39,239 nucleotides of DNA from an uncultured Candidatus Saccharibacteria bacterium. GTDB taxonomy: Bacteria > Patescibacteriota > Saccharimonadia > Saccharimonadales > Saccharimonadaceae. Positions 1 through 1,200 of the stretch are shown in pieces. The notes under the pieces are model-generated. The model had not been told where the DNA came from. It did no database searches and saw only the letters and a program-made list of their open reading frames with translations. The position numbers and the translations under genes were made by a program. Each line of letters starts with the position of its first letter. Position 1 is the stretch's first letter. The stretch is from contig CAMVNH010000004.1 of NCBI GenBank assembly GCA_947168825.1, forward strand, positions 1 through 39,239, written 5' to 3'.

Positions 1-2
1 TC

Positions 3-1049
3 ACTTGCTCTGCTCCTTCCCAATCCTCCTACACTACCTACAACGTCTCTATCTCCATCTCCAAGCTAGGCTACAGTAAGACCTTGACGAATGCGTATGA
101 GTATGCATTGCCACCAACTTTCTTCACTATCACTAAGATGCAACAAATGACCCATGATATCTGTACAGACTCAAATATCCCAACCCCATCCGCAGGCGAA
201 ACAACCACCCTAACTAAATCAGCTTATGACAGTGGTTCCCGTACCGGTATCCCAACCACCACCCTCCTAGACGATCGTGCTGGACAAGTATCCTACACCG
301 TGAAGAAACTCGCAGACGGCAAATGCTGGATGACGGAGAACCTAGCCCTTCCTGCCGGAGCAGTCCTTAGTGCTTCAGATTCAGACCTTGATGGCGTAAA
401 AGTATCTAGCTATACATTACCATCTAGTAGAACTCCGTTCACTAATTCTACTAAAAACGATACAGAAGAAATGTACGACCCAGTAGCTGGTGGTAGCAAT
501 AAAACTACCACCAGCCTAGGCTACAAAGTAGGCAACTATTACTCCTGGCGTACCGCTACCGCTGGTACTGGTAGAGGCGCAGAATCAAACCCGGGAACCG
601 GAGTACTAACTGATGCTTTCGGTACAGATATGACAGTACGAAACAACAATACTCTCGTCTCCATCTGCCCTAAAGGTTGGCGTCTCCCAACATCAGGCAA
701 TAACTCCACTACTGGCACTACCGACGTTACTACTCCAGGCTCTGCTACCAATCTCGTAAACGGAGACTTTGCCGCTCTTTATCAGGCTTATGGCGGTACA
801 GACACATACGGCAATGACACCACTATGTACACCCAACTGACCAACCCAAGTTACGGCCCTAACTTCGCCCTCTCTGGCTACGTCGACGCCAGCGGTCAGA
901 GCGGCGTTAGTAGCAGCGGCTTCTTCTGGTCTAGTACGGTGTACAGCTACGACAACGCGTACAGCATGTACCTGGATACGTCGTACGTCGCCTCGCAGGA
1001 CTTCAGCGACAAGTACTTCGGGCAGTCTATTAGGTGCGTCAGTCGTTAG
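3..1049 (+). CDS. FISUMP-type surface protein, 3' part (start lies left of window)
   Basis: The frame is open from the left edge, so the N-terminus is missing; the first in-window start candidate is a TTG at 84, but coding continues upstream of it. The protein has the hallmarks of the Fibrobacter succinogenes major paralogous domain (FISUMP): 'CWMTENLALPAG', 'ICPKGWRLPTSGN' and a C-terminal 'FFWSST...SIRCVSR'. These proteins are extracellular and are thought to adopt a C-type-lectin-like or sulfatase-modifying-factor-like fold. Composition is rich in Thr, Ser, Gly and Tyr, as expected for a secreted adhesin-like protein. The last ~57 codons differ sharply in third-base composition from the rest and look like a retroelement variable region (listed separately). 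The FISUMP call is fairly sure; a binding role is inference. Confidence 0.8.
   Translation, partial: TCSAPSQSSYTTYNVSISISKLGYSKTLTNAYEYALPPTFFTITKMQQMTHDICTDSNIPTPSAGETTTLTKSAYDSGSRTGIPTTTLLDDRAGQVSYTVKKLADGKCWMTENLALPAGAVLSASDSDLDGVKVSSYTLPSSRTPFTNSTKNDTEEMYDPVAGGSNKTTTSLGYKVGNYYSWRTATAGTGRGAESNPGTGVLTDAFGTDMTVRNNNTLVSICPKGWRLPTSGNNSTTGTTDVTTPGSATNLVNGDFAALYQAYGGTDTYGNDTTMYTQLTNPSYGPNFALSGYVDASGQSGVSSSGFFWSSTVYSYDNAYSMYLDTSYVASQDFSDKYFGQSIRCVSR
876..1046 (+). other. Candidate DGR variable repeat (VR) at the 3' end of the FISUMP gene
   Basis: From residue ~265 to the stop, codons switch to third-position C or G. In the core at 939-1019, 17 of 27 codons end in C: TAC, AGC, GAC, AAC, GTC, GCC and TTC. 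This is the set expected when AAC codons of a template repeat are randomised at adenines by a diversity-generating retroelement. Conserved scaffold residues (WSST, GQSIRCVSR) flank the variable positions, as in C-type-lectin-fold DGR targets. No reverse transcriptase or template repeat was seen in the window, so the assignment rests on codon pattern, position and family. Confidence 0.62.
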
Positions 1050-1065
1050 TGGCCGCGCTAGCCTT

Positions 1066-1118
1066 TGCCTCAGTTCCGCCTCCCTTTGCGGCGACGGAGT
1101 CGCCGCGGAATAAGGCAA
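1066..1118 (+). other. GC-rich hairpin just after the candidate VR
   Basis: A perfect 8-bp stem, GCGGCGAC (1088-1095) and GTCGCCGC (1099-1106), encloses the loop GGA. Flanking segments TTGCCT/AGGCAA (1066-1071, 1113-1118) and TTCCGC/GCGGAA (1075-1080, 1105-1110) are also complementary and partly compete with the inner stem. No T-run follows, so it is not a standard intrinsic terminator. DGR target genes often carry a short-stem cruciform just beyond the VR that aids mutagenic homing; this hairpin is ~40 bp after the stop codon. It may also end transcription of the surface gene. Confidence 0.55.
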
Positions 1119-1200
1119 GACAGCAATCAAAATAAGCAAACAAGAAAAACCATCAAAAAACCGCCGCAGACACTCTGTCATGTAGTAAAATAGAATCACC

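Follow-up and report, generated by a model that had tools for sequence, protein, structure and literature searches.

A remote variable repeat in a Saccharibacterial FISUMP gene and the antisense-template retroelement that very probably diversifies it

The window analysed in this work (39,239 nucleotides; contig C4:1-39239 of a genome assembly of 577,894 bp in 8 contigs) opens within a FISUMP (Fib_succ_major) surface-protein gene, and positions 864-1071, at the 3' end of that gene, are very probably a variable repeat (VR) rewritten in trans by a diversity-generating retroelement (DGR) located on contig C1 of the same genome. The initial annotation had proposed a DGR variable region made by adenine-specific mutagenesis, and this is borne out: every one of the 23 differences from the template repeat (TR1) falls at a template adenine, and TR1 lies beside a DGR-type reverse transcriptase (RT). 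A second DGR, the antisense orientation of the template, an RNA element on its 5' side and the two-domain Avd had not been anticipated in that annotation. The relevant features of the window are as follows.

1-1049, plus strand: 3' part of the FISUMP (Fib_succ_major) surface-protein gene, the DGR target (Pfam PF09603, E 2.5e-11; reading frame 3-1049)
864-1071, plus strand: variable repeat (VR), homologue of TR1 (C1:2372-2152, minus strand; 88% identity, 221 nt)
879-1018, plus strand: mutated core, with substitutions at 23 template adenines (19 codons, mostly AAC)
1020-1071, plus strand: IMH-like invariant 3' end of the repeat, spanning the stop codon, template adenines unmutated; putative IMH role by analogy with BPP-1
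1088-1106, no strand: perfect 8-bp inverted repeat with GGA loop; putative cruciform-type homing element

The start of the FISUMP gene is missing because the gene is open at the left edge of the window. A change to NNC/NNG codons near its end, fixed flanks (WSST and GQSIRCVSR) within a C-type-lectin-like scaffold, and a hairpin behind the stop codon had been described beforehand, and all were recovered. The third codon position is C or G in 47 of the 57 codons from 876 to the stop versus 132 of 291 in the remaining gene fragment (Fisher P 1.9e-7), with TAC, AGC, GAC and TTC the commonest codons of the VR; both flanks occur in the translated frame, and the scaffold corresponds to the Pfam Fib_succ_major match. 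The predicted fold of the target gave weak matches (4eps, probability 0.35, then a CLEC domain), so the lectin fold is assigned from the Pfam family. The limits of the VR were refined: homology to the template begins at 864, mutated positions extend from 879 to 1018, and near-identity continues past the stop codon until about 1071. The perfect 8-bp hairpin (arms 1088-1095 and 1099-1106, 3-nt GGA loop) begins 38 nt past the TAG codon (1047-1049). It is present 3' of the VR and absent 3' of the TR, and among 69 related loci perfect hairpins were found on the VR side in 15, on the TR side in 2 and in shuffled sequences in 2. The same hairpin occurs in a copy at C1:55-125. This left end of C1 (L015:1-125, genome G000) carries a FISUMP-like 3' end (YSTNGLTLRPVY followed by a stop) that lacks a VR and is followed by the post-VR sequence and hairpin of the window; this may be the DGR1 cis target after loss of its VR, or the contig end may be chimeric. 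Downstream in the window, positions 1201-2184 encode a 327-aa protein in which RNase HII is fused to a UPF0102 (YraN) nuclease-like domain (Pfam RNase_HII 1e-39, UPF0102 7e-21).

The check proposed in the initial annotation, a search of the genome for an adenine-rich near-copy next to an RT, found both on C1: window positions 850-1150 match C1:2152-2372 on the minus strand at 88% identity, and the match is AAC-rich and adjoins the C1 RT gene. Across a 190-nt alignment with TR1, the window VR departs from the template at 23 of 58 adenines and at none of 132 other bases (Fisher 3.5e-14), the substitutions being 10 A to T, 12 A to G and 1 A to C. The 19 changed codons are mostly AAC, a codon unable to become a stop, and the mutated interval holds 53 adenines across 34 codons. 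Chance codon bias is ruled out by this adenine-only pattern. The sequence could also be read as an ordinary duplicated FISUMP gene with GC-rich third positions and no retroelement, and FISUMP paralogues are indeed common, with Fib_succ_major matches at seven places in the genome (four ending in a VR, three in unrelated tails). However, duplication leaves unexplained the adenine-only differences from an AAC-rich copy beside a DGR-type RT, and TR1 and the template of the second DGR (TR2) differ from each other with no adenine bias (8/58 adenines versus 27/132 other bases). We regard this reading as refuted by the TR1/VR differences, with a negligible chance of being correct. DGR2 was likewise ruled out as the source of the window VR by 24/129 non-adenine differences from TR2. 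Since TR1 and the RT sit on C1 and the window on C4, the window VR is a remote target, one of the two placements that had been offered for it. The link between C1 and C4 is drawn from binning together with repeat identity, as the two halves lie on different contigs of a fragmented assembly.

The genome encodes two DGR-type RVT_1 proteins, on C1 and C2, and in total has two DGRs and four FISUMP targets. DGR1 consists of an accessory protein gene (C1:162-1019), the RT gene (C1:about 1021-2124) and TR1 (C1:2372-2152, minus strand). DGR2, on C2, has its target directly upstream, and TR2 differs from the C2 VR at 22/61 adenines and 0/129 other bases. A VR of TR1 type at C1:167,069 (20/58 adenines, 8/132 others) and one of TR2 type at the end of C3 (29/60 adenines, 11/127 others) make up the remaining targets; the 8 and 11 non-adenine differences of these two, among four VRs in all, show that not every target has been freshly rewritten. 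Such differences, together with decayed DGR remnants in a relative, would fit a target that was written in the past and is now static, homing having stopped. Against this, the window VR agrees with TR1 at every non-adenine position, neither RT frame is interrupted, and the RT, Avd and TR components are all intact; we consider a static target unlikely, and the C1 DGR is probably still active. The contig ends C1:1, C3:1, C3:101179 and C4:1 (G000) break at or inside FISUMP/DGR genes; fragmentation of the assembly thus coincides with these repeats, and additional VRs may be absent from it.

The host had been called a member of the CPR, and this was upheld. RT relatives in named genomes all belong to Candidatus Saccharibacteria, mainly from ruminant gut, one of them being Nanosyncoccus alces, and RT matches were found in 25 of 60 relatives, nearly all of the same genus; judged by its nearest RT relatives, the host is a gut Saccharibacterium. 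The RT contains the motifs GIVIGNLSSQ (IGN-x-SSQ) and YVDD; among solved structures it matches 8ub7, the BPP-1 DGR RT, best (E 2.8e-42; next match 1.3e-12). The accessory protein encoded upstream of the RT is 285 aa long (150-383 aa among relatives in an ORF survey in which some are shortened by locus ends) and gave no match to Avd at the sequence level. In the structural model of a close relative's protein (pLDDT 95.5), residues 160-277 form an Avd/S23 four-helix bundle that superimposes on the 4dwl and 8ub7 chains with Z of about 14 and an rmsd of 2.0 over about 108 residues, the best unrelated bundle scoring 12.2. On this model, the accessory protein is an Avd four-helix bundle placed behind a further N-terminal domain. 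The latter (residues 1-155) is modelled as an alpha/beta domain whose strand-turn-strand arrangement resembles MutS_I by eye; structural searches with the model returned matches to the Avd bundle only. MSL accessory proteins, a known DGR type, carry a MutS_I domain (PMC10053308). The hhalign comparison of the accessory N-terminus with MutS_I was of low probability and not significant (P 0.016 and 0.08), there was no Pfam match to PF01624 in the accessory protein, and a MutS_I domain was found in 0 of 117 genomes across the Saccharibacteria class. Absent mismatch repair in Saccharibacteria could favour the keeping of DGR-made mismatches. An N-terminal helix-turn-helix-like segment (e.g. GWSQADTASKLGVSAKTLGFWLNG) is present in the accessory proteins of loci L035, L081, L088, L094, L101, L104, L107 and L109, which suggests, as far as sequence goes, a DNA-binding or regulatory fusion.

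In both DGRs of this genome the TR is antisense to the RT gene and starts less than 30 bp past the RT stop codon. We surveyed the layout in 91 distinct related RT loci, in 73 of which a TR/VR pair was resolved; the C1 locus entered the survey through the match between TR1 and the window, its VR lying elsewhere. Of the 73 resolved loci, 69 have an antisense TR immediately 3' of the RT (exceptions L045, L120, L123 and L086). When 68 loci were classified, 52 had the VR and target upstream on the RT strand with the TR alone inverted, as in the C2 locus of this genome, and 16 had the VR downstream and on the other strand from the RT. In loci of other genera and orders, the TR is either sense and upstream, the canonical layout, or, in a single genus, antisense and located 5' of the RT. 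The latter loci (L145, L146 and L137, from another genus of the family) form a separate DGR lineage, an apparent second template inversion. Antisense TRs in Saccharibacteria may have earlier mention in the CPR DGR literature.

The template also has a conserved leader. On the TR strand, the TR is preceded by a TATAAT-type promoter-like sequence. A 20-nt motif 5' of the TR was detected by motif finding on that strand (log-likelihood 209 versus 60-66 for shuffled sequences), and 32 of 49 loci have TANAAT boxes about 65-110 nt upstream of it, versus 9 on the other strand. A first leader alignment gave no structure in RNAalifold; the helix was found by the motif search and then a search for pairing partners. 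The segment AGAAGCA within the motif pairs with TGCTTCT 50-105 nt downstream, the partner beating 90% of shuffled partners in 29/49 loci and the total pairing score being 775 versus 594 with shuffled partners. In an alignment of 33 sequences, 94.3% of the helix cells are paired, with covariation of 0.76 versus 0.15-0.24 for slid versions; the paired percentages lean high because the 3' partner was picked by complementarity, which the shuffles and later model matches offset in part. In the present genome the helices are GAAGCA/TGCTTC for DGR2 and GAAACAG/CTGTTTC for DGR1, both downstream of an identical TGCTATAAT.

A covariance model of the leader matched seven loci outside the training set (L031, L061, L067, L072, L075, L120 and L128), in each of which the element lies beside a resolved or apparent TR and nearly all of which pair fully. 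L120 and L075 have a TR in sense orientation relative to the RT, and there too the leader element lies 5' of the TR on the TR strand; since it keeps this place when the orientation of the TR flips, the element belongs to the template RNA. Across 60 genomes the matches were confined to this genus, eight of them belonging to RT loci and one to a DGR remnant, and among the loci searched in other genera (L136-L165) there was no match. The remnant (L249:1417-2074, contig C2 of genome G022) has an orphan leader element and the 68-bp 3' end of a TR alone, with no RT nearby, and the 68-bp end is identical to the end of a nearby FISUMP gene; it is apparently a TR from which the variable core was deleted. 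A search of Rfam with the element from five loci gave no match (E up to 5), and the folded leader is apparently undescribed.

How the leader acts can be read in two ways, which concern its role alone and do not affect the DGR reading. It may be an attenuator-like regulator of the level of TR RNA, the RT/Avd binding site lying in the short 3' flank as in BPP-1. The DGR1 leader has a hairpin and then a U-rich stretch, and terminator-like sites are found downstream of the TR in 20 of 70 loci (3.8 in shuffles), often about 45 nt past the TR, which indicates that a 3' tail exists; yet little room is left for this tail, which is antisense to the RT gene (usually 0-90 nt before the RT stop is reached), and the covarying helix invariably sits on the 5' side of the TR and moves along with it. 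We give such a regulator somewhat less than an even chance. Alternatively, the template would be an independent small RNA antisense to the RT gene whose RT-Avd-binding structure is 5' rather than 3', so that priming would differ from BPP-1, and the N-terminal domain gained by Avd may read this RNA; we offer this tentatively, as a proposal that may well prove wrong.

With the leader taken as part of the template RNA, the following cycle can be proposed. The minus-strand promoter would produce a separate TR RNA made up of the conserved-helix leader and then TR1, and the leader might help recruit RT-Avd. The RT and the Avd-like protein would copy the TR RNA into cDNA, placing random bases opposite adenines, and the cDNA would replace the matching VR, guided by the identical IMH-like 3' end and the downstream hairpin. 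In this way the lectin-like tip could change at as many as about 34 codons, 19 of which differ from the template in the window, while the scaffold stays. The FISUMP protein probably helps the bacterium attach to its host cells or recognise them. Since cultivated Saccharibacteria live on the surface of other bacteria, rewritable surface lectins suggest partner change or phage evasion. The remote VR is tied to its template within a genome assembly of less than 0.6 Mb, in which one RT/TR unit would serve surface proteins elsewhere. A covariance-supported RNA element is now available for the template RNA of this gut-Saccharibacteria DGR clade, and how template RNA is located and used for priming by RT-Avd in systems other than BPP-1 becomes a directly testable question. 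A naturally separate, trans-acting template RNA could also simplify DGR engineering.

Several known DGRs can be compared with the systems described here. Clade 2 (Roux et al. 2021, PMC8144416) comprises the Patescibacteria/CPR DGRs, of which there are several per genome (PMC10907252); the present DGRs share the host phylum, the cellular location and the multiplicity. The targets described for clade 2 are without recognisable domains, whereas those found here are FISUMP proteins, a comparison made by description. DGRs with Fib_succ_major targets are known from human gut metagenomes (PMC4159848), the likeness to them being drawn from the shared target domain. In archaeal DUSEL4 DGRs the VR is followed by a hairpin whose trinucleotide loop reads GRA, and the IMH motif is TGGGGT/TGGAAT (PMC4372165); the post-VR hairpin is shared, with GGA as its loop, but the host here is not archaeal and the IMH motif was not seen in this sequence. 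Inverted DGRs are known yet rare (PMC3521204, PMC6642488). In those of Shewanella, Vibrio and Photobacterium (three cases only; DiGReF, PMC3521204), the RT occupies one strand and the TR, VR and target share the other. As in those DGRs, RT and TR are on opposite strands and hence form two transcription units; unlike DiGReF group 4, the target and VR are on the RT strand in 52/68 classified loci, the VR being inverted as well in 16. The Bordetella phage BPP-1 DGR (mtd/avd/TR/brt) resembles the present system in its adenine-specific TR/VR difference, C-type-lectin-type target, IMH-like 3' end, hairpin after the VR, Avd bundle and RT (8ub7). In BPP-1, the avd-TR-brt operon contains the TR-RNA on the same strand as the RT, and bRT-Avd is recruited, and cDNA synthesis primed, by a structured spacer located 3' of the TR (PMC12875486). 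Here, in contrast, an antisense TR comes with a promoter-like sequence of its own, and the conserved RNA structure is on the 5' side of the TR.
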